From positions 1 to 45,541 of the IMG/VR virus record IMGVR_UViG_3300008267_000093: a stretch of 45,541 nucleotides of DNA, one strand, 5' to 3'. The position numbers were made by a program, and so were the translations under genes. This document shows positions 15,626-44,906 of this stretch, in pieces. The stretch comes from a virus. The notes beneath the pieces were generated by a model. The model made no database searches, was not told where the DNA came from, and saw nothing but the letters and a program-made list of their open reading frames with translations. Each line of letters opens with the position of its first letter. The stretch's first letter is position 1.

Positions 15626-18600
15626 TTAACCGTTTAAAATAATTGAACAACCTACACTGTCAGTAATAGTTGTTGAAACTGTTGATGGTGTAGGACATCC
15701 AGCACCAGTACCAGCAGCATTAATAGTTGTTTTATCATTAACATCATAAATTACATATTTACTAGGTGTTAATGTACCTATACCACCATTAGCAACAACT
15801 GTGAATGTACACACATTAAGTTTAGGGTCGTTTTTATCAACAATTAAAGTTTGTCTATTAATAACCCCAGTTAACACTAAAGCTGGTACTTTAATATTTA
15901 AATCTCTTGTTGTTGTACAACCTACTCTATCTATTAATGTTAAACTTACTTTAACATCTGTTCCAACTAATGGTAATGGGATATTATCTGTAAATGTGTA
16001 TAAAGATTTTGGTGTTGTAATAGTAACAGTTTTTTCTGGTCCATTGTTTATTTTATATTTTAATGTGTATGGGAATCGTTTTATATATAAAATGTCTTTA
16101 TCTGTATGTGAAATACCAAAATTAAAAGTAACTGTAGTTCTACTACATTGTTTAATATTTTCTGGTTTGTCATTAATTGATAAAAATGTATTAGGTAATT
16201 CCATCTCAGATGCATTAATATTAACCCATGTTGGTATAGTTTGAACACAAGTTTTTAATTTATCTTTACCAAAATATTCGTTAGTTAAATAAACTCTCAT
16301 TTTATCAGTACTTGATAACTGAGAGGATGGTATATTAAAATAGTGTTGTGTACCAGCAACATATGGTATAACAACTAAAGTTTCTTTTGAACCAATCACG
16401 TAAACTAAATAAATATTATTATTAATAACACCAGAATTAATATCTATAGGTACAATATATTGATTAGGGTCACATTGTTTAGCCAATACAGCTGTTGAAG
16501 GTTTAGTCGCTTCTAGCTTTGGTGTTAAATGTTTTAAAATAGACGGTATAGTAGAAACAGTTTTAAACGCATCTTCAACCTTTATATTATACAGTCCAGC
16601 AAATAATTGTGTTACTTTAATATTTTCACCGTTATTACTAATCGCTTGGGTTTCATAGCCGCTTGGTCCAGTAATTGTAACAATAAATGGTTGTTTACCT
16701 CCATTGATAGTTACAATGATACCGTCTGTAGAACTAGTTTGACCACCATAACATTGAATATCAACATGTGTTTCAGTTATCACTAAAGGTGTTGGTCCAT
16801 TTATTTTTAAATTATTTATGTCAATTGAATTATTACACGAGTCTTTAATCGTTAGCTTATACCCAGTTAAATCCATATCAGATAATAAATTCTTAATCTC
16901 AAAAGGTATCTGAGCAACAGTAATTGAACCAGACGTTATTGATAGACCTTTACTGTTAAAAAGTTGATAGCTGTAATTACCACAACCTCCATCAATAGAA
17001 GTTATTCTAATTTCACCATCACCAACTGTAGCATTACTTGCATTCTTAGAAACACTAGCTGATGCTGATAATTTAGGTGGTGACGCTACTGTAACTGTTT
17101 GTTTTGTCGTGTTACCATTTTTATCTACTACTGTTATTATATAAGTACCAACATTTAAATTTGAAATAGTTGTTTTTAAATTGTTTGTTAATACACTACC
17201 TTTATTAATAAACCCATTTGGACCACTTACTGTAAAATCAAAAGGTGCTACTCCAAATAAAACTTCAAAAGAAATAGAGCCAGTTGGATTTGATACTGAA
17301 GCACCAACGCTACTAGCTTTTATCGTTAAACTATCAGTTATAGTTTTATTACAAACACCATAAAATCTTTGATTTAGTTTTTCTAAAGCAGATGCCCCAG
17401 GAATAATACCAAAATAGAAGTAATAAGAATGTGATGGTTGTGTAAATACATTTTTACCACCATATCCTCTAAATTTTGAATATTCAACACCATTATCAAC
17501 AGCATCATCAAAGTTATATGTTTTTTGGTCTCTAATATTAAAATAATTATTATAAGGTACAGAAGGAAAAGTATATTTTGGTGCATTAATATTAAAATAC
17601 GTTAAATCTTTATTTAAAGAATAAAATACATCTCTAAAATAAACTCCAGTGTCATTATCTATATCACCCATATCCAATCTATAATTTGGTCTAATAGTAA
17701 CGCCATTTGCAACATATGCGTCATCCAAATTAACACCATATTCACAACTATGTCTAACATTTAAACACTGTCTATAATCCATTGTTACACCTAAACAATT
17801 TATCGAGAAAAATAAACCTGGGACGTTTTTATTTAATTCAACCATACCAGCATTTATTGCTGTTGATGAATTATTTGGGTCTTCATAATCTATTTGTATT
17901 TGAGGAAGTTTATATGATGTAGGTTTTAATAGGTTATATAATATTGGTACACCTTGCCAATCACACGCATTTGTTGAACCTAGTAATGTTAATTCAGTAG
18001 CAAACAATTTATGTTGTGCATTGTGTCTACTTGCAGCGTAATATAATACATCTTCTACTTTAGTATTCTTAAAAAATACTTCAACGTTTTTAACAACACC
18101 ATCTTTTATACCACCACTATCAAATGTCTTATCCTCAGAACCATCTAACCCAAGAATGTTTGGGTCACCATCGTAACAAGAATCTAACAAATAATTTGTA
18201 AAACATGAATTATCAGCATCACCAGCATTATCAGTATCTACACCACTATATCCATCTGACCCTTTAAAATCTTCACAATCGTATTCACAAAATTTTGTTT
18301 CACTATTACTCTTCTTTTTGAATTGCACTAAAAATGCATATAGCGTACCAGTAACCCAATCATTGTAAAAATCAAATCGATATACGTTTAACGCTTCAGC
18401 TAAAGCTGCTTGTAAACAGTCATCAGCACCAGCAAAAACATCTAATAAAGTATTATCATCATCACCAGGATAAAAAACTCTTTTTTTACCATTATATTTG
18501 TCTTTAAGTAAATCTAAATGTGGTGGTGGTAATTCGAAACATCCTGGAGCATAAATATTACCATTAGTTGAGGGACATTCTAAACTAATACATGGTAGGT

Positions 18601-20209
18601 ATGGTAAAATACTAGTACAATTACAACAAGTATTTGGACTAATACAATAATCACATTTATTTTCATCTATAATCCAATCTGGTATTGCATCTAAAACAAT
18701 ACCAATACCAAAAATTATCACACAAATAGTTGCCAAAACTGCATTTAATATTAAAATAATAAGATTTAATAAAGGTACTAATATAGTATTTAATAATAAA
18801 ACAATTGTTAATACTATTGTTAATAAAATACATAAGAAAAAATATAGAGGGTCACCAGATGAATCAACCCTATTATATGGGAAAGGTGTTTTATCACCAG
18901 TACATGCATTAACGTCTTTAACACCAACAAAGTTCCTAACATTTAAACTACTTGCTTGAAATCTAGAAATAAATGAACTTACTGTGTATATTTTGTTCCA
19001 ATAAATTGACCTTAAACTAGTTGGTTTAGTTTTTGAACCAAACTCATAATCAATTTCACTAGTATTACTGGGGTTGTTAGGTATCAAATAATTTGCTCTA
19101 GTTCTATTTTCCAAGTCACCTATTTGATTCAAACCTATTCTGAATCTAACATTAGCTCTAGTTGCAATCCCTATACTTGGGTTATCTGAAGGTACTAGTT
19201 TACCAAATTCATCAGTAACTACATAATCCAAATTCATAGGTATTTGAAACGCCCATGTACCATCATCATCAATTAAATCACCACCATCTATGTCAAACCT
19301 TTCTATATTACCATCAATCGTTTCCCTAATCATATCTACCCTACCAGATGTAGTTATTTGTTCACATAATGTACCCATAACCCTTCTAGGTCTACACCAG
19401 TTACTAACACCGTCCGTATCTGAATCTCCAAAAATTGAACCCATAAAGATAGCGTTAGATTTAATATTTAAATTCAAATCTAAATCTACTCTATTTATAC
19501 CAATTTCACACGATTCAGTATCACCCCAGAATGGTTGTACGTTAACACCAGTATTTAATGATTTTACTTGTACTAAACTATCTATATTTTTACTATATTT
19601 AAATTTATTAGGTGATTCAAAAAATTTTTCTGGTGTTCCAGTAGAAATTAAATCGTATGGTTTTTGTGTTGCCATACCTATATCTGAAATATCAACATCT
19701 GCATGTATTGTATGGTTACCAACTGGTACACCAAATAACATAAAATCACCAGACTTATTAGTTGTAGCTGTGAATTTATAATATTTAGTAAAAATATATT
19801 CTAACTCTGGATTATCCAATATTTCTCTTTTTGTAGGCATAGTACCTATAGGTGTGAAACATGGGTCATTTTTTTCATTGTTTTTTGGTAGTAAATTATA
19901 TCTAATACCATCCATATCTTTATCTGTTACTATTTCATAAGGATATAGACCTTTAATTATCGGATTATCTTTATCTACTTCATCAATAGGTATAAAAACA
20001 CTAACTCTGGCGTTTGGAACACCAAACCCATTATTAACTATAACCCTACCAATAATAACACCGTAATCAGAACAGAAATTTCTATACGCTTCTTCTTGTG
20101 ATATTTTCAAACTAAGAGTTTCAATAAAATCAAACTCTTGGTCTATTTTAACTTTAATGTAATTATCACTCCCATTAGGTGTTGTTCTTATTCTAATAGT
20201 TTTTGACAT
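15626..20209 (-). CDS. Giant virion protein: carboxypeptidase-regulatory-like domain, hydrophobic segment, Cys cluster and SprB-like repeats (1527 aa)
   Basis: A very large protein of the baseplate operon. Residues about 50-180 (GVIIGRVIVNNGFGVPNARV ... GDFMLFGVPVGNHTIHAD) look like a carboxypeptidase-regulatory/transthyretin-type beta domain. Residues 455-506 are almost purely Leu, Ile and Val, long enough for two membrane passes, and are followed at once by a Cys cluster (CDYC, NTCCNC). From about 955 to the end there are three to four Ig-like modules with Gly-rich turns, such as CYGGQTSSTDGIIVTINGG near 1150-1170. These resemble the SprB repeats of Bacteroidota gliding adhesins. It is probably a tail spike, fibre or membrane-engaging protein; the function is inferred. 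The last module ends abruptly, near the stop codon. Confidence 0.6.
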   Translation of the reverse strand: MSKTIRIRTTPNGSDNYIKVKIDQEFDFIETLSLKISQEEAYRNFCSDYGVIIGRVIVNNGFGVPNARVSVFIPIDEVDKDNPIIKGLYPYEIVTDKDMDGIRYNLLPKNNEKNDPCFTPIGTMPTKREILDNPELEYIFTKYYKFTATTNKSGDFMLFGVPVGNHTIHADVDISDIGMATQKPYDLISTGTPEKFFESPNKFKYSKNIDSLVQVKSLNTGVNVQPFWGDTESCEIGINRVDLDLNLNIKSNAIFMGSIFGDSDTDGVSNWCRPRRVMGTLCEQITTSGRVDMIRETIDGNIERFDIDGGDLIDDDGTWAFQIPMNLDYVVTDEFGKLVPSDNPSIGIATRANVRFRIGLNQIGDLENRTRANYLIPNNPSNTSEIDYEFGSKTKPTSLRSIYWNKIYTVSSFISRFQASSLNVRNFVGVKDVNACTGDKTPFPYNRVDSSGDPLYFFLCILLTIVLTIVLLLNTILVPLLNLIILILNAVLATICVIIFGIGIVLDAIPDWIIDENKCDYCISPNTCCNCTSILPYLPCISLECPSTNGNIYAPGCFELPPPHLDLLKDKYNGKKRVFYPGDDDNTLLDVFAGADDCLQAALAEALNVYRFDFYNDWVTGTLYAFLVQFKKKSNSETKFCEYDCEDFKGSDGYSGVDTDNAGDADNSCFTNYLLDSCYDGDPNILGLDGSEDKTFDSGGIKDGVVKNVEVFFKNTKVEDVLYYAASRHNAQHKLFATELTLLGSTNACDWQGVPILYNLLKPTSYKLPQIQIDYEDPNNSSTAINAGMVELNKNVPGLFFSINCLGVTMDYRQCLNVRHSCEYGVNLDDAYVANGVTIRPNYRLDMGDIDNDTGVYFRDVFYSLNKDLTYFNINAPKYTFPSVPYNNYFNIRDQKTYNFDDAVDNGVEYSKFRGYGGKNVFTQPSHSYYFYFGIIPGASALEKLNQRFYGVCNKTITDSLTIKASSVGASVSNPTGSISFEVLFGVAPFDFTVSGPNGFINKGSVLTNNLKTTISNLNVGTYIITVVDKNGNTTKQTVTVASPPKLSASASVSKNASNATVGDGEIRITSIDGGCGNYSYQLFNSKGLSITSGSITVAQIPFEIKNLLSDMDLTGYKLTIKDSCNNSIDINNLKINGPTPLVITETHVDIQCYGGQTSSTDGIIVTINGGKQPFIVTITGPSGYETQAISNNGENIKVTQLFAGLYNIKVEDAFKTVSTIPSILKHLTPKLEATKPSTAVLAKQCDPNQYIVPIDINSGVINNNIYLVYVIGSKETLVVIPYVAGTQHYFNIPSSQLSSTDKMRVYLTNEYFGKDKLKTCVQTIPTWVNINASEMELPNTFLSINDKPENIKQCSRTTVTFNFGISHTDKDILYIKRFPYTLKYKINNGPEKTVTITTPKSLYTFTDNIPLPLVGTDVKVSLTLIDRVGCTTTRDLNIKVPALVLTGVINRQTLIVDKNDPKLNVCTFTVVANGGIGTLTPSKYVIYDVNDKTTINAAGTGAGCPTPSTVSTTITDSVGCSIILNG

Positions 20210-33477: not shown

Positions 33478-36400
33478 TTATTGACCTAAATTTCTAAAGA
33501 AATGTGTATACTCTTCAAAGAATGCAAGCACCATTGGTGTGTGACCTAATTTAACGGCTTTAAAAATATTACGGTTTTCAGACATTGGTGATTTATTATC
33601 ATCCAATCCTTTTTGTATTTTTCGTAATCTATCACCAATTACTTTATATTTACCACCCCAGTTATTAGGATTAAACCACATAGCGTAATTTGTAGTGCTA
33701 TCACCTAAATTTTCCTCACATTGTTTAACGTTGTTATCATTTGTAGATGGGTCAATTAAAGCTACTCTAGAAAATTTTATTGGTGCATTTTTACCAACAT
33801 AAGGCCATATTTTAGTTCCACCAGCTGAAAAACCACAGATTGTTCCATAATTAGCATCATCTTTAGCTACTATTTGTTCAATTGTTCTTCCGTTATATTC
33901 TTCAAATACGATTTTAACATTAGTTGTGTCGATACCAGCTTTTTTAAACTCTCCTTCAATCCATTTAGCACCATATGGTGCAATCCCACCATAAATTATA
34001 ACACCATATGGTTTTTTAGGGTTAGATTTTTTTGTATTATTCTTATTATTTTCATTTGTTTTTTCTTTATATTGATATAAAGGTTTCCATGGAATTTTAT
34101 TTTGACTCAGAATCCTAGCAACATATGTGTCAATAGGTATACCAAGTTTACCTTTACAACCTACAGTACCTTGAACCCAAACACTAAAGTCTTTACATTT
34201 CTTCTGTTCTTCAACCGCTAAATTATATGCATCTTTTTGTGTTTGTAACCCTTTTTTCAATGCTGCTAAAATAGCACTATAATTTTTTATAGTTTCAGCA
34301 GTGGCCTTAACACCATCTTTTTGTGTTGCATAGTTATATACACCATCACTACCTTTTATTGCATTAGGCATTTGTTTTTTGGTATTTAATGGGTTCCATG
34401 TAAATTGACCACCTTCCCATTGATTCCAAGCTTGGAATAACGCTAGATTACCAGTTGAAATTGGTGCACCTAAATAAGTTAATACGTCAACAAAGAATTG
34501 TTTAGTATCAGCTTCAGAAACTTTAACTTTATCGGTAGTATTATCTTCCGAACCATCTGATTTGTTAACTTCAACATTTTTACATGATGTTGTATCAAAA
34601 ACATTTTCAGAACCATCTGATTTTTTAGGGTTTTTTACAACACTTTCATATTTAGCATCATCTGGTACTGTAAAGGTAGTTTTAGTTTTAAAAATAGTGT
34701 TACAACTTTTAGCTAAACAAATAGCAGCTTTACCGTGATATTCCCAATGCCATGATTCATCGTAACTACCACCATTATGGGCCCAACAAGGGTTAATAAA
34801 CCCATATCTAAATGAATTTTCATATAACCATTTTATAGCTGGGTTTTTATCAAAATCAAATTCATTTTTACCACTACCAGTACTATAATTCATAGATATT
34901 TCTTTACCTTCTTTATTAACCCATCGCATATCGACAGCTAATCCCCATCCGTGGTATGATGTACCAGCTTTTGCTTTAATATTACTTTTCAAGTTTTTTT
35001 GAGTCTCAAAACCTCTATATTTAGAACCTAAAAGACCGTAATAACCATCACTACCTTTCTTAAACCCTTGTTGTTCCATCCACGTACCCCAAGCATCTGC
35101 CATTGCATCTAAAGCTTCTGCTGCTTCTTTAATCATATAATCTGGTTTAGATACTTTGAAGTATTTTTTCTTACCACCAGTAACAGCTTTAGTCGTTACA
35201 GAACCATATTGTTTACCGAATTCAATATAACCGTTTCGTACACCATTTTCAATTAATACAGCAACCATTGGTGAAAACTTACCTTTGTAGTTTCCTCCAC
35301 CACCACCAGAACCTCCAGTACCTCCAGTACCTTCATTCGATTTCGCTGCTGATGTGTCTATTGAATCTATTAATTTCATATAGACATCTCTAGATGTAAT
35401 TAAAGGTGTTTGTGTGTATTTAACTCTTACACCTTTAAATCTTGTAGTCATTGAATTTGGAATAATAGAATGATTAACAGAAGTAATCATATACGCACCG
35501 TGAAACATTGGTATATTATCTAATTGAAAATACATCATAGGTTGAATCATGGCGTTACCCATCATTTCAACTTCAGCAGTATAACTTCTAACAGAATAAA
35601 CATTATAAATATTTTGCCCTATTATAGTTCTATTATTTTCTCTACCTTTTTGTGCAATATCATCTTGAATTTGTAATGATTCATCGGTTTCTGTAAATTC
35701 ACTTTGGTCTAAATTAATATCTTTAAATATATTTTGATTTTGTTGTCCATATCTAACAACAAAACTACCTACTGCTTCTTCATATTTCTGATTTGAGACT
35801 GACGTGAAATCATTAGGTACGTTAACACTTACATTTCTATTCTTATCACATCTTAAATCAAAACCATCATTAGGTGATTCATTATCGTAATAATCTAAAT
35901 GCTGTGAATTTTGACCTAAATAAACACTAACAAACGATGGACCACAAGTACCATCTTTTAATGTACCTTCAGAATAACTATATGGTTTAAAAATTGATTT
36001 TAAATTTTCTTCATTATTAAAATTAATAAAATTAGGTAATGGTATAAATTCAAAATTATTGGCTGCTAACAATGATGTTATACATTCGTATGAACTCATA
36101 TTATTATTTTCATACATCCAATCATTTATTGGTGATGGGTCAATATATAATAAATCCCCTATATCACTAAAAGCCCTACTCACAAACCTAAAACTATCAA
36201 TTAGTCTTGGTCTACTATTACCATATTTTTTAGATAGCTCTGTATCAATTATACTTCTAGAACCACACTGGAACATAAGCTCATCAACACTATTAGCACC
36301 AGCTAACCATTTATCATAAATATTTTTACATGTTCTATATAAACTTAATTTAATTTGGTATTCGTTTGTTGTTCCAAATACTTTTTGATTTAGTCTTTCA

Positions 36401-39400
36401 GTTTCTTTTGTTTGATTAAAATTATCTTTATTAGCTGCTAACGTTGCTACTACTTCATCTAAATAATCTTTAAGTACATTAGTTTTAATTGTTATACTTT
36501 CATATTCATTTTTACTACCAACATTATCACTCCAAATCTTATAATTATTATTTAGAATAATGACTTCTTCGTTTAACGCATCAATAATAGTTTTAGTCGC
36601 ATCAGTATTATCTCTTAATTCTAACCATAAATCATTTTCCTTATTACCAGTTAAACTATAATATTCTGTGGTTACCACATAATAATAATTATTTATATTT
36701 TGAGTGTTAACATCACCATAATTTAATATATAATCAATTGTTAAATCATTTTTGTTATAAACATCAGTTACAAATTTTTTAAATTTAGTGTAATTTCCAT
36801 CAAAAATTTCTAACTTACTTCTAATCTCATCCCAATCTGTAGTTCCAGCTCCGTTTACAAAATCTAAAAATATTTTAATAAATTCATCTTTAACTTGAAT
36901 TGGTAATGTGTTAATTAAATCAGATTTACCAATATTTGAAGTTTCGCCAAATTTTCTAGATAAATATTGGTTTCTATTAGGTGCGTCTAAATGACTAATA
37001 AACGCTATAGGGTCAGAACTACCAGAACCACCACCAACTATATCATCACCATCTAATATTGGTGCTCTTTCACTATTTCTCCAAATTATACTACCAACAA
37101 ATGCACACCATAATTTAGGTGCATGAATTATACCACCTTTATGTTTAAAAAGGTTAATAATCGATGGTTTAGCAAATGGGTCTAAATTATCTGAATCTAA
37201 ATTAAATGGTAATGTATGTAAAAAAGCCATAGCTTTTGCATATTTACCAACATTTGTACTGTTAATTTTAGAATTACCCAGATAATAATAATATGAACTA
37301 CCAAACAATGATATAGGTCTATCACCATCTAGATAATAAACGAATGGATAAGTTATTTTGTCAGTTTCATTTGAATTAAATAATTCTAAATTTTTCCCTA
37401 AATCAGAATGTATTATTTGAGACCCATCAGCTCTACCTAGGAAACTATCTATAAACCCTTGTTCTTTTCTTTCTTTTATTTTATATATGTCACTTATAGG
37501 TTCTAATTTTCTGTTGACATAGTAACTATATACATTAATTGTTGATTTATCTTTAACTTTAGTTAATTTTTCATACGTATATTCTTTATTATAACATAAC
37601 CCAACACCTATTTTTTCATTTGCAAACCCAGTTATGTCGTCTTGAATGTTTGTATAAAAAACATACCTTAATGGTAATCCTTCTAATTCATTTACACCCC
37701 AATTTAAATTTACATATTCTTGAATACCAAAACCACTACCAAAAGAATTAAAACCAGCTTCTGATGGGTTCTTTAAATCTTTATTTTTTAACCCCTCTAG
37801 TTTTATAATATTTTCAGTATTAGCAATTTCTAATGTAGGTAAACTACCCATGCTTATCTCAGTAGGTGATATAATTTTTAAATAAACACCACCATCATCT
37901 GCTTTGTAGATAGTGCTATCGTTAGTATTACTGTAATTAGTTAAGAAAACAAACCCGTTTTCTTGTTTATTTTTTAATTCAGTTTTTGTTTTTTTAATAT
38001 TATTAACATTATAATACCCCCAAGAGGTTTCGTTTATAATACCTTTATTAATTGGTATTATCTTTAATGGGTTATCTTTATATAAATAATTATATATATA
38101 CACCCCAGAATTCTCAACAATAATAGGTCGTTTAGTGCCATTAATTGTTGCTAGTGACGCTACGATATTTTCAACAGTTAACGTTGTTAAATTACGCTTT
38201 AATGTATTATTAGAATTATCTTGAACATCCTTAATCATTGCTTCAGCTTCAGCTTTTGCCATTAACTTAATTTCATCTTTACTTAACATAGTGTGATTGT
38301 TAGTGTAAGCTAAAAAGGTCATCGCTCTAGTTAATAATAAAGCATTAACATCATCAGATGTCTGTGGTGCAATTCTAAGGTATGGTTTATCTGTTGAATA
38401 TTCTTTTAAGTCCATAGGGTTTATTGCAAACCATGAACTTATATCATTTTGTTCTAAATTATTTTGATTTTCTTCGTCTTTCTTTTGTGTTTTTCTAAAT
38501 GCTATTACTAATTCGTCAATAAAATCTATTTCATTAACATCACTTGGGTTTTGTAAAACACCAGGCGACCCTAAATATTTTTCAACAAATGTATTTTTAT
38601 TTTCATCTTTTTCTTGATATGCTGGCCATGGTAAAAAATCATTACTTGTTAAAAATCTTCTTTTAACATCTGTATTTTTTGACTCACCAGAATCAAAATT
38701 AAAAACTTTTTTTAATTCATCAGTTCTTTTTGTGTTGGTTTTTGTTTTATCAGCAACAATAAAAATACATTCAGCTAAAACCTCAATAGCAGCAGTAAAA
38801 CATTCTACAATTGTTCTAACTGTTGGGTCAAAACCTAATTCAGTTTTAATTTCTTTTCTAAAAACATCAGCCAACTTTTTCTTTTCATCATCTTGTCTTC
38901 TAAAAGTATTACTCTTTTTTTCATTTACAGTTTTGATAATTAAAGTCATATCTATTATATCAAACTCTTCTTTTGATTTTAAATCTTTGTTGTTTCTTCT
39001 TAAAAATTCAATAATTTCATCAGCTTTTTCTTTGGTGTTACTATAATTACCAAGAATCGTTTTTAATACAGATTCTGTTGAATTTTCTAATTTATTAATA
39101 GACAACCCTTGGTAAACTCTGTTACCATTACCAGTGTTTGATTTAACAAAAATAAATTCATTTTCTGTCAATATATCAGTTGGTGATAATCCATTATATT
39201 TTAACACTAAAGACTCAGCGTCACCTTTTTTATATATTTTATCTTGATAGTCTTCTATCTTTTTTGTATTGAAGGCATTGGATATATCACCTTTTTTAAC
39301 TACAATATATTTAAAATCTGTTTTCCCATTATTTAAATCAATGGCACTACCCAATGTATTTATCTCATTAATTATATTATCTAAAGAGTCTATGGCTAAT

Positions 39401-40209
39401 TTAGTATCATTAAAATTACCTCCTTTCTCTTCAACTGTTCTATCTAGTTTATTATTTATAGTTGAAGCGTTTTCTGCTAATTCATTAAGGGTTAGCACTG
39501 GAACTGATTTACCATTATTATAATTAAGATATCTTTCTCGACCTAATTCAGTTTCACCAATAGCTTTTAAATAACCTAATAACATATCTGATAACATCGC
39601 ATATGTATAACCTACAAAATTACATGTGATTTCAAAATTACCATTTTTTGAGTTGAATTTTGAATTGAATTTATACATATGTAAACAGTATTTAACTGGA
39701 TACCCATAGAATCCCTTAATTTCTAATTCAAATAAAGGATACGGTAGTTGAAAAAATGTTGTAAATTTGTTTTCACTGTTAAGTATTCTTTCTTCATTTT
39801 GAAAAATTGAACTACCTCTAACGTCAACAAAATTTATAGTAATTAATGGAGCATATGCTGAATTAAATTCAATATCAATACTAGTAATACCCAGAGTCTC
39901 ATCGTTTATTTCATCACCAAAATCAGTAGTTAAATCAGTCCACTTTGTTGTTAAATATTTTTTACCATCGCCTCCAATATTAGAACCTTCAATAAAATTA
40001 ACTTTTAACGATTTAGTACTTTGTGCAGAACCACCACTATTTGTTTTGGTTAAAACAGTTTTACCTTTTTTAATAGATGTTAAAGCAACTGATATATTCA
40101 AATCTTCAAGTGAAACTGGAACATTATCACTTGAATTAAACCCATTAAAATCATTTGGGTCTATTATTTTAACTCTACCAGCACGACACCCTATATCATT
40201 TATAGCCAT
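33478..40209 (-). CDS. Giant baseplate-hub protein with M15 peptidase, lysozyme-like and alpha/beta-hydrolase-like domains (2243 aa)
   Basis: Probably the tail hub plus cell-wall lysin in one chain. The first about 1600 residues are structural; residues about 1544-1590 (VEMMGNAMIQPMMYFQLDNI then FHGAYMITSVNHSI) match the hub pattern seen in gp27/gpD-like proteins. A Gly-rich linker lies near 1630-1642. An M15 (VanY-like) DD-peptidase follows, with His1753 and Asp1760 (YHGWGLAVD) and Glu1818/His1821 (ESWHWEYHG). About 1905-2010 resembles a lysozyme/glucosaminidase-type domain (FQAWNQWEGGQFTWNPLN, Glu1932, then KDGVKATAETIKNY). The last 175 residues have GFSAGG (Ser2128), ALIDPS (Asp2153) and KLGHTP (His2223), an alpha/beta-hydrolase-like triad. 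The start overlaps the gp53-like stop by one base. Confidence is high for M15, moderate for the hub and hydrolase, lower for the lysozyme-like part. Confidence 0.78.
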   Translation of the reverse strand: MAINDIGCRAGRVKIIDPNDFNGFNSSDNVPVSLEDLNISVALTSIKKGKTVLTKTNSGGSAQSTKSLKVNFIEGSNIGGDGKKYLTTKWTDLTTDFGDEINDETLGITSIDIEFNSAYAPLITINFVDVRGSSIFQNEERILNSENKFTTFFQLPYPLFELEIKGFYGYPVKYCLHMYKFNSKFNSKNGNFEITCNFVGYTYAMLSDMLLGYLKAIGETELGRERYLNYNNGKSVPVLTLNELAENASTINNKLDRTVEEKGGNFNDTKLAIDSLDNIINEINTLGSAIDLNNGKTDFKYIVVKKGDISNAFNTKKIEDYQDKIYKKGDAESLVLKYNGLSPTDILTENEFIFVKSNTGNGNRVYQGLSINKLENSTESVLKTILGNYSNTKEKADEIIEFLRRNNKDLKSKEEFDIIDMTLIIKTVNEKKSNTFRRQDDEKKKLADVFRKEIKTELGFDPTVRTIVECFTAAIEVLAECIFIVADKTKTNTKRTDELKKVFNFDSGESKNTDVKRRFLTSNDFLPWPAYQEKDENKNTFVEKYLGSPGVLQNPSDVNEIDFIDELVIAFRKTQKKDEENQNNLEQNDISSWFAINPMDLKEYSTDKPYLRIAPQTSDDVNALLLTRAMTFLAYTNNHTMLSKDEIKLMAKAEAEAMIKDVQDNSNNTLKRNLTTLTVENIVASLATINGTKRPIIVENSGVYIYNYLYKDNPLKIIPINKGIINETSWGYYNVNNIKKTKTELKNKQENGFVFLTNYSNTNDSTIYKADDGGVYLKIISPTEISMGSLPTLEIANTENIIKLEGLKNKDLKNPSEAGFNSFGSGFGIQEYVNLNWGVNELEGLPLRYVFYTNIQDDITGFANEKIGVGLCYNKEYTYEKLTKVKDKSTINVYSYYVNRKLEPISDIYKIKERKEQGFIDSFLGRADGSQIIHSDLGKNLELFNSNETDKITYPFVYYLDGDRPISLFGSSYYYYLGNSKINSTNVGKYAKAMAFLHTLPFNLDSDNLDPFAKPSIINLFKHKGGIIHAPKLWCAFVGSIIWRNSERAPILDGDDIVGGGSGSSDPIAFISHLDAPNRNQYLSRKFGETSNIGKSDLINTLPIQVKDEFIKIFLDFVNGAGTTDWDEIRSKLEIFDGNYTKFKKFVTDVYNKNDLTIDYILNYGDVNTQNINNYYYVVTTEYYSLTGNKENDLWLELRDNTDATKTIIDALNEEVIILNNNYKIWSDNVGSKNEYESITIKTNVLKDYLDEVVATLAANKDNFNQTKETERLNQKVFGTTNEYQIKLSLYRTCKNIYDKWLAGANSVDELMFQCGSRSIIDTELSKKYGNSRPRLIDSFRFVSRAFSDIGDLLYIDPSPINDWMYENNNMSSYECITSLLAANNFEFIPLPNFINFNNEENLKSIFKPYSYSEGTLKDGTCGPSFVSVYLGQNSQHLDYYDNESPNDGFDLRCDKNRNVSVNVPNDFTSVSNQKYEEAVGSFVVRYGQQNQNIFKDINLDQSEFTETDESLQIQDDIAQKGRENNRTIIGQNIYNVYSVRSYTAEVEMMGNAMIQPMMYFQLDNIPMFHGAYMITSVNHSIIPNSMTTRFKGVRVKYTQTPLITSRDVYMKLIDSIDTSAAKSNEGTGGTGGSGGGGGNYKGKFSPMVAVLIENGVRNGYIEFGKQYGSVTTKAVTGGKKKYFKVSKPDYMIKEAAEALDAMADAWGTWMEQQGFKKGSDGYYGLLGSKYRGFETQKNLKSNIKAKAGTSYHGWGLAVDMRWVNKEGKEISMNYSTGSGKNEFDFDKNPAIKWLYENSFRYGFINPCWAHNGGSYDESWHWEYHGKAAICLAKSCNTIFKTKTTFTVPDDAKYESVVKNPKKSDGSENVFDTTSCKNVEVNKSDGSEDNTTDKVKVSEADTKQFFVDVLTYLGAPISTGNLALFQAWNQWEGGQFTWNPLNTKKQMPNAIKGSDGVYNYATQKDGVKATAETIKNYSAILAALKKGLQTQKDAYNLAVEEQKKCKDFSVWVQGTVGCKGKLGIPIDTYVARILSQNKIPWKPLYQYKEKTNENNKNNTKKSNPKKPYGVIIYGGIAPYGAKWIEGEFKKAGIDTTNVKIVFEEYNGRTIEQIVAKDDANYGTICGFSAGGTKIWPYVGKNAPIKFSRVALIDPSTNDNNVKQCEENLGDSTTNYAMWFNPNNWGGKYKVIGDRLRKIQKGLDDNKSPMSENRNIFKAVKLGHTPMVLAFFEEYTHFFRNLGQ

Positions 40210-40529
40210 TATTCTCCGTATAACAATTTATAATTTTTTATTTCTTCACTATACCTTTGCATAGCACTTTCAAATGGATATGGTATTATTATTTCTGACA
40301 TATCTGGTATGTTAAATTCCAAACCACCATATTTAGAATTGGCTAACATTATTAACCAACCACTCCATGGATTATTATAAAACATATTACTCAATTTGTC
40401 AAGTCTTGTTACTCCTTGTTTGTAAACATATGACAAATCTGTGTTTGATTTTGGTATATTTATACCAAATAAGGGTTTTATTTTTCCGTTTTCTTTAAAC
40501 GCTGAATATCTATCTACGTAATTAGCCAT
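40209..40529 (-). CDS. gp53/LysM-like small baseplate protein (106 aa)
   Basis: Looks like a small baseplate wedge or hub-capping protein. The pattern 'GVTRLDKLSNMFYNNPWSGW' then LIMLANSKYGGLEF is that of LysM-like/tail-protein-X segments (a start Thr-x-hydrophobic, then 'fY.dp..WwlI..aN'), and T4 gp53 carries such a LysM-like part. It then reads IPDMSEIIIPYP, the usual closing strand. The stop overlaps the hub gene start (TAATG), and the gene follows the 1452-aa baseplate protein by 18 bases, a sensible setting for a hub-wedge connector. gp53 identity is tentative; a LysM-like fold is more secure. Confidence 0.65.
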   Translation of the reverse strand: MANYVDRYSAFKENGKIKPLFGINIPKSNTDLSYVYKQGVTRLDKLSNMFYNNPWSGWLIMLANSKYGGLEFNIPDMSEIIIPYPFESAMQRYSEEIKNYKLLYGE

Positions 40530-40547: not shown

Positions 40548-43500
40548 TTATGCATAAAATTCAAATTGTTCACTAGAACTATAACCATTATCTTTAGTCA
40601 TACCTATTCTAACTTTTTGAGTTTGAATTTTATTTCCTTCATAAGTTATCGTTAAATCATACTCACCCTTAATATTCTTAGTGTTAACAACAAAAGAACC
40701 AACATCAGAAAAAGTTTCACCTAATTCATAACCAGAACCAAATATACTCCATGGGTCTTTAGATGAATTATTGCCATTTTTACAACATGGGTTATCAAAT
40801 TTAATTTCTTCCTCATAAATAAAATCGTTAGCAGAGTCTGGACCACATAATTTAACTTTTAACCCCTTAGATAAAAAATCTTTAAATTTAGCATCATCTA
40901 GTAATCTAGTATATGACCCATCGTCATTCTTTTTTTCAATATTTTCTTGTTTAAGAGAAAATTTTACTATTTTAAACGCCTCTTTATCTACTCCAGAAAT
41001 ACCATTAGCTACAATAGATTTAAAGCCAGTTATCTTAGGTTCTGTTGAATTAGATTGTGGGAGTTCCTCTTGATTCGTAGCAAGTGCTGTTGATTCTACA
41101 ACTTTTTCTTGGTTAACTTCTGGTTCTGGTATTATCTCTTCTGATGTTTCAACTACTGCACTATCTAAATCTTTTGTTATATCACCCATTTTTAATTCAA
41201 AAGTTGGACTACTACCATTACCAGCAGATGTCGTAATGATATCAGACCTAGTTTCAAATACTTGTGTATTAGCAAAGAAATTAAATGATACCGCATTTTG
41301 TAATCTATTTATAGGTCCATATAATGATTCACCACCAATAAATTTAAATGACATATTTACATTTGCAATCATAGGTTGTACACCAATACCTTCTGGGTTT
41401 AAATCCCAAACAAGTGGTTCGTAATCAAAAGAAATATTATCAATAATAATTTTTGTATGATAAAAATCACCAATTCTCAATATACAAACTGGTGGACGAC
41501 CAAAAGCTAAGTTATTAGCACTTTGATTTTCCTTTGTTTGTCCTTGTCTAGTACATTGTAATAAAAAAGTTAATCTTTGATTTAATCCTTCTGGTGTCAT
41601 AGAATGAAACGAAGGGTGAAAATGTTTTATTTTTTCTCTAAACTTATCAAAAATAAAATCGTTTTTCTTTTTAAGTTTATCAAAAAATAACATTTCATTA
41701 TAAAATTTATTTCTAATCGTTTGTTTAAATCTTTTAGTTTCTGTTGTAACTGTATCTTCTGGTTGTGCAACAGCTGCATTTGCAGCAGCTTCATCAAAGG
41801 TGAATAATATCTGAACATATCTATCCAATTTACACCCTAATGTGTCTGGTGGACAAGCCACTTTTCGTTCAGCAGCTGATATTCCACCTTTAACTCCATC
41901 TTCTTTTCTAGGACAAACATTACAACCATTTGCTGACCTTTTAACTGTAACTTTTTTTTCTTTATTATTGTAAGTATAAATTACATCAACTTCATTATTA
42001 GCAACTAATTCTTTGGAACCTTGTTCTACAATAAAAATACTATCAGCATTAGGTAAATTTTGAGCTTTAGCTTCAGCTACTAATCTATCTTTAATAAATT
42101 GAGCTCTTTTAGGTGATAATGTGTTATTATTGATTGATTTCTTTCCTTGTGCACTGGCATAACCAACTAATCTTGCTTTACAGAATTTACATTCTTCTTT
42201 TAAATATTTAATTACAGCTTGTTCAAAAGTTTCACCATTAACTGAGTTAAAATAACCTCTAAAAGTTTTACTTCCAACTTTTGTTTCAATTGAGAACTTA
42301 CCTCCATTATTTAAACTATAATTTGTCCTATCTGGCCAATAACTATAACTATTTGTCACTTTCTTTTTACCGTCAGTTTGACTAGTAAATTTACCAGGAT
42401 ATGGTTGCTCACCAAACCCTTCTCCAGTAGCGTTAGAAGTATAATCTATAGGTGATGAAGGGTTTTCATAAACTTGGAATTTAGTATTAGGACCAACCTC
42501 AGTATTATCATTTGCAAAGTAAACTCTCATTTCACTTGGAGGAACTTCTTTAACTGCTGCTGGTTTTGGATTTGGTGTTCTTATTTCAGTTGTTACTGTT
42601 TGAACGTTATCTTTTAATGTGAATTTATCAGTCCATACACTATCTGGATTAATACAACCAGCCATAAAAGATGCAATATAATTATCGTCTGGCCCATCGT
42701 CACCTCTAAATGTGTTTGTATATGTTGAATGGTCAACAATAATTTTAAAAGATAATTGACCACTTCTTTCAGTGTTATTATATGTGTAAATATTTTCACC
42801 TCTACCAATAAATTTATGTGGTTCCCATTCAACTGATGAAGATTCACTAAACTGAATATCATAAGGAGGAAACCACATAATTCTACCCCTTTTACCAGTT
42901 ATTAAATCACCTGGACCTTGTTCTCTTTTTGGTAAACTATCTCTATCATCATACCATGCTAAATTTTCAATAGAAAACATGAATTTTTTAACATCTGTTT
43001 TATGGTCACTGATATTATCATCAGTATATGGAACCACTTTAACATGACCATTATCCTCTAAAACTGAGTTTTCAGCATTATATCTAAATGGAACTGAGAA
43101 TTTACCATCGGTAAATATTTTATCAGCCCTTATCTGTTTATAACCGTTATCATATCTATTAAATGTTGTCCATGCACGACAATAAACGTCTTCTGGTTCT
43201 TTATCTTTAACTTCCTTATATCTACGATTATCATTATACATATCTTTTGATAAAACAGCACTACCTTTAGAAATACCACCACCATTTGCCGTTTGTATTT
43301 GTGTTGATTTAATACCTAAGTCACCTTCTCTAGATACAATATTTTTCATACCATTACTATCAAACAATAACTGAGTTTTCCTTAATATGTTTTTTTTATT
43401 AGAATTGAAAGGAACTCCGTAAGTGAATCCATCTAGACGTGTGTTAGCCACACCACCTTCCTCACTTAACCATGAATGTCTAATTTTTTTAGTATTAGTA

Positions 43501-44906
43501 CCATCTTTTTGTTCGTAATCATTAAATCCTTTAGTTATAAAATCTTCAAAATCTTTTTCAACCAAAGCTTCTCTATTTGATATTAAATTAGGTATCGTAT
43601 AAATGTTACCTTTTCCACTACCATCATTCGTATCAAATAAATCAATAATTAATCCATTTTGTGAAAAAGCATATATCTCAGTATCTGTTAATCTTTCATT
43701 ACCTTTATTATCAGTAAAATAAGCTGGAACATAACCAGTTCTAAATTGATTTGTTGAATTACTAGGGTTGTCGTTACCGTCTTTAGAGGTACCATCTCTA
43801 TTAGTCATAACGTTAGATAATAACGCTAATACTTGACCTCTACCAGTTGTTTTGATTAATTCATTAGCTCTAGTCACATTATCAACATTACCGCTTTCAG
43901 ATTGAAAAATTGACCCGTAAGGGTTCATATAACTTCTAGGTAATGAAAACCCTAGTATTGTTGATGTAGCGTCTAAGAATCGACCTAAACCACTTTCTGG
44001 GATTGTTATTTTATAACTTGGTCTTAACCCAGCGAATCCAGTACCTTTAACTAAACTAACTAAGTTTTCTTTAATGTTTAATGCACCCAATATCGATTCT
44101 TGTAAATTAAAAGCAGCGTTATTAGCTAAAGCTAAAGCTAATTGTTGACCACCTATCATACCTAATTTAGTATCGCTAATTGTACCAGTTGCACCTAATA
44201 CTCTTCCAGCTAATGATGACCTTAAATCAAAATTAGCCACTGGACCAGAGGACGATATACCTACACCTTGTCCATTTACTAAACTACCTATTATATCAGC
44301 AGCTTGTGTTGATTTGCCACTAGAATTACCAAACATTAAGTTACCTTTATCATCAATATAACCTTTGGTTACTTTTGTTGGGTCTAAACTAGGTACATCA
44401 GTAGAGATTAGAGGTGCTATATCTTTTTGTTTATCTGAGTCTGAATATAAGTTTTTTGAAATATTATCGTTGACATAATTCTTATATTTTGTTTTACTTA
44501 ATATACCATATGTTTGTATTAAAGTATTATCAGAACTTGGATATACTTTCCAAGTTTTATTAGCAAATGTTGAAAAATCACCGAATATTGTTTCTAATTT
44601 AACGTTTTCAATTTCTTTTGGTTGGTTTGGAATTGATGAATCAGTTTTAAAAATATTTGAACCTATAATATCTTCCCTATAAGCACTTCCCATATCAACA
44701 ACATTATCACTTAAAGGAAAATTTGTCGGTAAATAATCAATTTTTGCTGGTAAACCTATTTTAGGACCTATAGCAATAGTTAATTGTTGAGCGTAATCTA
44801 GATAAGGTACTATATTTAAATTTAATAGATTATCACGGATATCTATCGATACACTATTTAATGTATTTTTATTTGTTGGTGTTGGGGGTAATTGACTTAT
44901 CGGCAT
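40548..44906 (-). CDS. Large baseplate/tail-tube-end protein with an internal OmpA-like domain (1452 aa)
   Basis: A structural protein upstream of the gp53-like and hub genes. Residues about 650-760 (RIMWFPPYDIQFSES then WEPHKFIGRGENIYTYNN) and about 1130-1220 (PPVCILRIGDFYHTKI then GIGVQPMIANVNMSFKFIGG) look like the two halves of an XkdP/tail-LysM-type baseplate module. Between them an OmpA-C-like peptidoglycan-binding domain (about 840-990) shows RLVGYASAQGKKS and NTLSPKRAQFIKDRL. That core is bracketed by two C-x2-C pairs, Cys906/909 and Cys995/998. The Ala/Gly-rich region near 200-300 may be helical. It is the first large gene after a terminator at 44965-44994. The role at the tail tip is inferred. 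Confidence 0.68.
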   Translation of the reverse strand: MPISQLPPTPTNKNTLNSVSIDIRDNLLNLNIVPYLDYAQQLTIAIGPKIGLPAKIDYLPTNFPLSDNVVDMGSAYREDIIGSNIFKTDSSIPNQPKEIENVKLETIFGDFSTFANKTWKVYPSSDNTLIQTYGILSKTKYKNYVNDNISKNLYSDSDKQKDIAPLISTDVPSLDPTKVTKGYIDDKGNLMFGNSSGKSTQAADIIGSLVNGQGVGISSSGPVANFDLRSSLAGRVLGATGTISDTKLGMIGGQQLALALANNAAFNLQESILGALNIKENLVSLVKGTGFAGLRPSYKITIPESGLGRFLDATSTILGFSLPRSYMNPYGSIFQSESGNVDNVTRANELIKTTGRGQVLALLSNVMTNRDGTSKDGNDNPSNSTNQFRTGYVPAYFTDNKGNERLTDTEIYAFSQNGLIIDLFDTNDGSGKGNIYTIPNLISNREALVEKDFEDFITKGFNDYEQKDGTNTKKIRHSWLSEEGGVANTRLDGFTYGVPFNSNKKNILRKTQLLFDSNGMKNIVSREGDLGIKSTQIQTANGGGISKGSAVLSKDMYNDNRRYKEVKDKEPEDVYCRAWTTFNRYDNGYKQIRADKIFTDGKFSVPFRYNAENSVLEDNGHVKVVPYTDDNISDHKTDVKKFMFSIENLAWYDDRDSLPKREQGPGDLITGKRGRIMWFPPYDIQFSESSSVEWEPHKFIGRGENIYTYNNTERSGQLSFKIIVDHSTYTNTFRGDDGPDDNYIASFMAGCINPDSVWTDKFTLKDNVQTVTTEIRTPNPKPAAVKEVPPSEMRVYFANDNTEVGPNTKFQVYENPSSPIDYTSNATGEGFGEQPYPGKFTSQTDGKKKVTNSYSYWPDRTNYSLNNGGKFSIETKVGSKTFRGYFNSVNGETFEQAVIKYLKEECKFCKARLVGYASAQGKKSINNNTLSPKRAQFIKDRLVAEAKAQNLPNADSIFIVEQGSKELVANNEVDVIYTYNNKEKKVTVKRSANGCNVCPRKEDGVKGGISAAERKVACPPDTLGCKLDRYVQILFTFDEAAANAAVAQPEDTVTTETKRFKQTIRNKFYNEMLFFDKLKKKNDFIFDKFREKIKHFHPSFHSMTPEGLNQRLTFLLQCTRQGQTKENQSANNLAFGRPPVCILRIGDFYHTKIIIDNISFDYEPLVWDLNPEGIGVQPMIANVNMSFKFIGGESLYGPINRLQNAVSFNFFANTQVFETRSDIITTSAGNGSSPTFELKMGDITKDLDSAVVETSEEIIPEPEVNQEKVVESTALATNQEELPQSNSTEPKITGFKSIVANGISGVDKEAFKIVKFSLKQENIEKKNDDGSYTRLLDDAKFKDFLSKGLKVKLCGPDSANDFIYEEEIKFDNPCCKNGNNSSKDPWSIFGSGYELGETFSDVGSFVVNTKNIKGEYDLTITYEGNKIQTQKVRIGMTKDNGYSSSEQFEFYA

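Follow-up and report, generated by a model that had tools for sequence, protein, structure and literature searches.

A 45,541-base viral contig (hereafter the window, the whole stretch of DNA analysed here) encodes a 2243-aa protein that probably forms the hub at the tail tip of a contractile, T4-like phage. The final ~600 residues would make up a wall-opening kit, and the end of the hub would be a site at which such kits are exchanged; we hold this combined reading with good confidence. The reading frame is intact, its first C-terminal domain matches a peptidase family at every zinc-site residue, the presumed active-site residues of two further domains are conserved, related hubs combine cutting modules in different arrangements, and the DNA of close relatives loses and regains homology at precise breakpoints.

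Layout of the probable hub, its gene neighbourhood and a probable host

The window has a low G+C content (24-32%) and carries nearly all of its genes on the minus strand. The hub and its upstream neighbours are arranged as follows:

33478..40209, minus strand: likely tail hub or tail-tip protein, 2243 aa, with a C-terminal wall-cutting cassette; intact frame, role from synteny and the gp53-like gene
35335..40209, minus strand: conserved hub body, residues 1-1625, from comparison with relatives
35293..35331, minus strand: Gly-rich linker, residues 1627-1639; cassette boundary, with the DNA homology of relatives breaking at the equivalent point
40209..40529, minus strand: small gene for a gp53-like baseplate wedge protein, overlapping the start of the hub gene; weak Pfam Phage_gp53 match (E 0.07)
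40548..44906, minus strand: 1452-aa protein, positional counterpart of immuto gp035 by gene order alone

The hub frame starts with ATG and runs without an internal stop, and the expectation from a sequence-only reading of this DNA, that a single 2243-aa chain ends in three domains after a Gly-rich linker, was borne out, with the linker located at the residues listed. Conservation is highest at the C-terminal end of the body, where the last 320 residues are 51-77% identical over 80 loci; one scan of viral contigs with the last ~340 body residues (1300-1640) found 245 relatives.

The same reading had taken the protein for a tail hub. Because profile comparison with T4 gp27 and gp5 was negative (hhalign probability <1%, no detectable similarity), this identity rests on gene order. 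The hub also had no hub match in PHROGs, and searches with P0001, D2 and D3 (the second and third C-terminal domains) against 50,697 annotated phage records returned no matches. Directly upstream of the hub lies the gp53-like gene and then the 1452-aa protein; T4 has the gene order 53-5, and the window hub likewise stands directly downstream of its gp53-like gene. On the downstream side, small proteins are followed by genes reading as an ssDNA-binding protein, a RecA-type recombinase and an exonuclease, and further on as a DnaB-type helicase and ribonucleotide reductase. Flavobacterium phage immuto (NC_055915) has the same order: gp035, gp034 and gp033, then ssDNA-binding protein, recombinase, exonuclease, helicase and nrd genes, the part after gp033 running across the ends of its record. 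The gp53-like protein is 29% identical to the syntenic gp034 (E 2e-6). The positional counterpart of the hub is gp033, annotated 'carboxypeptidase', which shares a C-terminal M15 domain (32% identity over 102 aa); unlike the window protein, it has 938 aa and carries M15 only, without D2, D3 or a Gly-linked stack. The gp035-gp034-gp033 synteny and the gp53-like neighbour thus make the 2243-aa protein likely to be a tail hub, although the comparison with gp27 and gp5 failed.

The failed hhalign comparison and the absent hub PHROG match would also suit some other tail-tip protein with a lytic C terminus, such as a needle or tail-associated lysin, rather than a hub of the gp27/gp5 type. We consider this unlikely, since a gp53-like wedge gene lies directly upstream, as 53 precedes gene 5 in T4, the gene position is that of immuto gp033, and the very conserved C-terminal body is common to the 245 loci of that one scan. 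A separate hhalign pairing of the hub profile with immuto-like hubs (88%) was rejected, as it aligned opposite ends of the two, a C terminus with an N terminus.

In the phage collection, the window recombinase matched only immuto phages (35% identity over 97%), and immuto is the closest isolated relative by RecA. Given this match and the shared gene order, the host is probably a member of the Bacteroidota.

Two other window proteins drew our attention. The 1452-aa baseplate-cluster protein has a weak OmpA-like match at residues 899-973 (window 41988-42212, minus strand; E 0.029, under the cut-off), a stretch of peptidoglycan-binding type that is a possible wall anchor adjoining the cutting hub. 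A 1527-aa protein (15626-20209, minus strand) weakly matches Carboxypeptidase-regulatory, Por secretion-tail and Hoc-like domains, and its middle stretch is strongly hydrophobic and Cys-rich.

Three domains behind the linker

The cassette comprises these domains and residues:

34714..35277, minus strand: M15/VanY peptidase domain, about residues 1645-1832 (Pfam PF02557, PDB carboxypeptidases, family extent)
34951..34953, minus strand: His1753 codon, M15 zinc ligand, invariant 32/32
34930..34932, minus strand: Asp1760 codon, M15 zinc ligand, invariant 32/32
34756..34758, minus strand: Glu1818 codon, M15 catalytic Glu, invariant 32/32
34747..34749, minus strand: His1821 codon, M15 zinc ligand, invariant 32/32
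34087..34515, minus strand: D2 (residues 1899-2041), an unmodelled family and probable lysozyme-like glycan cutter; context, conservation, model
34414..34416, minus strand: Glu1932 codon, presumed D2 catalytic acid, invariant 21/21
33481..34014, minus strand: D3, residues 2066-2243, probable alpha/beta serine hydrolase (conserved residues, slot context)
33826..33828, minus strand: Ser2128 codon in GFSAGG, presumed nucleophile, invariant 4/4
33751..33753, minus strand: Asp2153 codon in LIDPST, presumed triad acid, invariant 4/4
33541..33543, minus strand: His2223 codon, presumed triad base, invariant 4/4

Judged by its E-value, the M15 domain is far beyond chance, and D2 and D3 are supported as domains by their conservation in independent relatives, without matches to database families. 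Pfam VanY (PF02557) aligned to residues 1735-1827 with E 2.6e-11 and 43.9 bits against a cut-off of 25, and phmmer matched structures of D,D-carboxypeptidases with E between 1e-4 and 1e-2. The zinc-site motif H-x6-D plus E-x2-H is present at exactly the positions proposed from the letters alone, and each of its four residues is invariant in the M15 domains of 32 of 32 relatives. Membership of the first domain in peptidase family M15 (VanY type) is established at the level of sequence.

D2 and its relatives matched no profile in Pfam, PHROGs or NCBIfam. A D2 profile scan of viral contigs gave 30 loci; the alignment holds 21 divergent members with 24-50% identity to the window, all of which keep Glu1932, W1938 and N1939 unchanged, along with a small number of further positions. 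The domain was defined from C-termini alone; a profile iterated over whole hubs had drifted into an unrelated hub segment and a SleB domain and was discarded. AlphaFold with the aligned relatives produced a helical model (pLDDT 86.5, pTM 0.84) in which Glu1932 (Glu40 of the model) closes the second helix (27-40) at its C-terminal end. In lysozyme-type enzymes, the catalytic Glu likewise lies at the C-terminal end of a helix. Foldseek with this model found no PDB match at E <= 0.001, SpmX muramidase appearing only at E 9.8; among viral models it found two uncharacterised phage proteins and a phage 'Peptidase M23' protein, with glucosaminidase-like and lysin proteins below significance.

The strongest evidence on D2 function is its context. 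In relatives, the D2 slot is filled by Phage_lysozyme2, Hydrolase_2 or Phage_lysozyme domains, and near relatives alternate between D2 and recognised lysozyme domains (locus L013 versus L014). Its partners are M15 in hubs, an M23 match in L093 and DUF2272 in L104, and it is the only C-terminal module found in four other tail proteins (L107, L108, L110 and L113). An actinobacterial Acidothermales MAG encodes a protein that pairs D2 with M15, and D2 is also present in more distant secreted actinobacterial proteins. As it occurs repeatedly with wall enzymes or in their place, D2 is most likely a lysozyme-like glycan cutter. The original lysozyme- or glucosaminidase-like assignment is well supported by the slot shared with recognised lysozyme domains, by the pairing with M15, M23 or DUF2272 in unrelated proteins and by the Glu (21/21), but D2 matches no known family or PDB fold. 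An unmodelled domain with a well-predicted structure and many natural variants, D2 is a candidate new lysozyme-type enzyme and a probable new enzyme domain family.

Having matched no glycoside hydrolase family and no PDB fold, D2 might instead bind the wall, which would leave a hub with one cutting activity (M15) plus anchors. This seems improbable: D2 is the sole C-terminal module found in those four tail proteins, where a cutter would be expected, near relatives have recognised lysozyme domains in its place, one Glu is fully conserved, and its top viral fold matches include tail or lysin proteins and, weakly, glucosaminidase-like ones. A glycan cutter remains our preferred reading of D2.

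The Acidothermales D2 and M15 protein (L120:3103-4131) adjoins a large membrane protein resembling conjugation channel proteins, and is possibly a wall-opening enzyme for conjugation.

D3 is known from four distinct sequences: the window, L001/L002, L003/L004 and the divergent L193 (27% identical), in which D3 directly follows M15 without D2. All four share a G-x-S-x-G elbow, an Asp and a His in alpha/beta-hydrolase order, namely Ser2128 (GFSxGG), Asp2153 (LIDPxT) and His2223. D3 was not found in bacterial genomes, and Pfam, PHROGs and NCBIfam gave no match to it. From the window, L001/L002 and L003/L004 sequences, AlphaFold built a poor model (pLDDT 65), for which Foldseek returned only non-significant, mixed Rossmann-like matches. 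A D3 profile including L193 had weak PDB matches (E 0.15-1, not significant alone), among them lipase/esterases and an alpha/beta-superfamily hydrolase that align with D3 at the elbow. In L073, L076, L053, L054, L061 and L079, the terminal slot of D3 is occupied by SGNH/GDSL domains.

With a non-significant fold search of a poor model, no family match and few known homologues, one could suppose that only M15 (perhaps also D2) is enzymatic, that D3 docks the hub on the wall, outer membrane or lipopolysaccharide, and that GFSAGG is a structural turn. This reading is rather unlikely. The Ser, Asp and His are invariant and in triad order even in the sequence that is only 27% identical, SGNH serine hydrolases fill the same slot in relatives, and the weak profile matches include alpha/beta-hydrolases and esterases aligned at the elbow. 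D3 is probably an alpha/beta-hydrolase or esterase; its early description as a third hydrolase-like domain and possible esterase is plausible in view of the invariant Ser-Asp-His set and of the SGNH hydrolases found in that slot.

Module sets in related hubs and in known virion lysins

Three hub scans together with the D2 and D3 scans gave 72 distinct hub C-termini, including the window, in a sample made up of the hubs nearest to three queries. Five C-termini are bare or broken. The other 67 carry a C-terminal extension with two recognised cutting modules in 47, three in 5 and one in 15, and some of them also hold sequence assigned to no module; as the module profiles were seeded from the same C-termini, the finding of a module in every one is partly by construction. 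The pairing of peptide and glycan cutter within the supposedly rare multi-tool proved to be the norm (two recognised modules in 47/67 relatives), and only the three-tool version is uncommon (5/67 extended relatives).

The modules fall into slots. Slot 1 holds a peptidase or amidase-like module (M15, M23, DUF2272 or a second M15-like type), slot 2 a glycan cutter (Phage_lysozyme2, D2, Hydrolase_2 (SleB), Phage_lysozyme or motif-labelled lysozyme-like types), and the rare slot 3 a serine esterase type, either D3 (alpha/beta) or SGNH. Pfam matches in 55 members comprised VanY (32), Phage_lysozyme2 (17), Hydrolase_2 (10), DUF2272 (8), M23 (5), Phage_lysozyme (2) and GDSL (2); the labels NPGNLR_lyz, GH73like, GH108, LT_L073 and M15_B come from motif reading or single weak matches, not from significant Pfam matches.

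Three hubs with bare C-termini (L030, L033 and L049) are each followed directly by a separate gene with a GH19/endolysin-like motif, RGRG(L/V)IQLTGR:

L049:9461-10436: separate gene after a cassette-less hub, GH19/endolysin-like
L033:9819-10872: separate gene after a cassette-less hub, GH19/endolysin-like
L030:4216-5266: separate gene after a cassette-less hub, GH19/endolysin-like

The L049 gene matches endolysin/chitinase families around RGRGLIQLTGR. As each bare hub has such a gene, the wall-cutting function seems to be kept even when detached from the hub. In L055 (9913-12038), the cassette is in several broken frames compared with the near-identical relative L048, which reflects either a pseudogene or assembly errors.

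The window protein resembles the T4 gp5/gp27 pair in being a tail-tip hub with a wall-cutting enzyme and a neighbouring gp53 gene; T4, however, has two proteins and one glycan cutter, whereas the window has one chain with up to three modules. In Staphylococcus phage 80-alpha, a gp27-like N-terminal hub domain is fused to an SGNH hydrolase (PMC7048315), and phi11 combines an endopeptidase with SGNH (PMC5380687). These Tal proteins (gp44/gp59 of phi11/80-alpha) share the gp27-like hub domain and SGNH/GDSL hydrolase, but belong to siphoviruses of a Gram-positive host and have no glycan cutter in the same chain. CwlP, HydH5, phiMR11 gp61 and phi11 gp49 do join a peptide or amide cutter to a lysozyme in one virion protein. 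The five virion lysins with a pair of lytic domains in a 2017 review all belong to phages of Gram-positive hosts, and the review tied this arrangement to the thick wall (PMC5380687). The window group differs in its probable Bacteroidota host, its occasional third module and its cassette exchange. With nearest isolates infecting Flavobacterium, two modules as the norm and three on occasion, it would break the Gram-positive-only rule. No description of three wall-cutting modules on one hub was found in the openly available literature searched.

Exchange at the hub end and a proposed entry mechanism

Phages that are ~96-99% identical in flanking DNA carry unrelated module sets at the hub end. Homology breaks at the end of the hub body or after M15 and resumes within ~25 bases past the stop. 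L061 and L065, for example, have core proteins 98.5% identical and flanking DNA 96-99% identical, yet L061 carries GH104-like and SGNH modules and L065 carries DUF2272 and Phage_lysozyme2; homology ends with the hub body and restarts 2-8 bases after the stop codons. Between L036 and L037/L038, the change is confined to slot 2: homology runs through M15, is then lost and is back 7-8 bases beyond the stop. Both slots differ between L022 and L026, with homology back about 20-25 bases after the stop, whereas between L073 and L080 slots 1 and 2 changed and slot 3 was kept in part.

The window itself fits into this series. At DNA level, L001 and L003 share most of its cassette or the whole of it, L013 is homologous through M15 only and L005 only up to the hub end, and in all four comparisons homology resumes just downstream of the stop. 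Chimeric assembly as a source of the swaps was rejected: both flanks are ~90-99% identical within one contig, and the cassettes recur independently, the L061 type in four contigs and the L037 type in three, which argues against such artefacts. Judged from these DNA comparisons, the hub end is a site of recent cassette exchange.

We propose the following order of events. At infection, sheath contraction would drive the hub tip through the outer membrane into the periplasm, where the modules would open a hole for the tube. The M15 zinc peptidase would cut peptide stems or cross-links, the lysozyme-like D2 would cut the glycan strand, and the D3 serine hydrolase would probably take off an ester, such as a sugar-chain O-acetyl group or an ester on a lipid, that would otherwise protect the glycan or lie in the way. 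Between close relatives, peptidase, glycan-cutter and esterase modules would be replaced singly or together, presumably through recombination in two conserved stretches, the hub end and the gene immediately after it. Enzymes of these families overlap those of endolysins, and the C-terminal domains might therefore act late, fused or proteolytically released, as a lysis enzyme. This is very unlikely in view of their permanent fusion to a conserved baseplate-operon body in this group and of tail-tip proteins with lytic domains being standard entry enzymes (PMC5380687). Action at entry, from the tail tip of the virion, is the reading we favour.

A more far-reaching version, which we put forward tentatively and with more doubt than belief, is that the hub end is a dedicated exchange site at which Gram-negative phages swap complete kits of peptidase, glycan cutter and esterase that track host wall chemistry, D2 being a new glycan-cleaving family with a fold absent from the PDB. 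Recent domain shuffling was described by Smug et al. (2023) in receptor-binding proteins and endolysins (PMC10684548); in the window group, by contrast, it is a tail hub lysin whose domains are exchanged, and the nucleotide breakpoints fall at one fixed site. No description of cassette exchange at a hub end was found in the openly available literature searched. With natural phage pairs that differ in little besides the lysin cassette, one could test directly whether wall opening limits host range, an issue usually considered for receptor binding only, and the module list is a source of enzymes working together from one tip. Near the exchange site in L030 (5936-7088), a few genes downstream of the hub, lies an open reading frame that reads as a TnpB-type protein.
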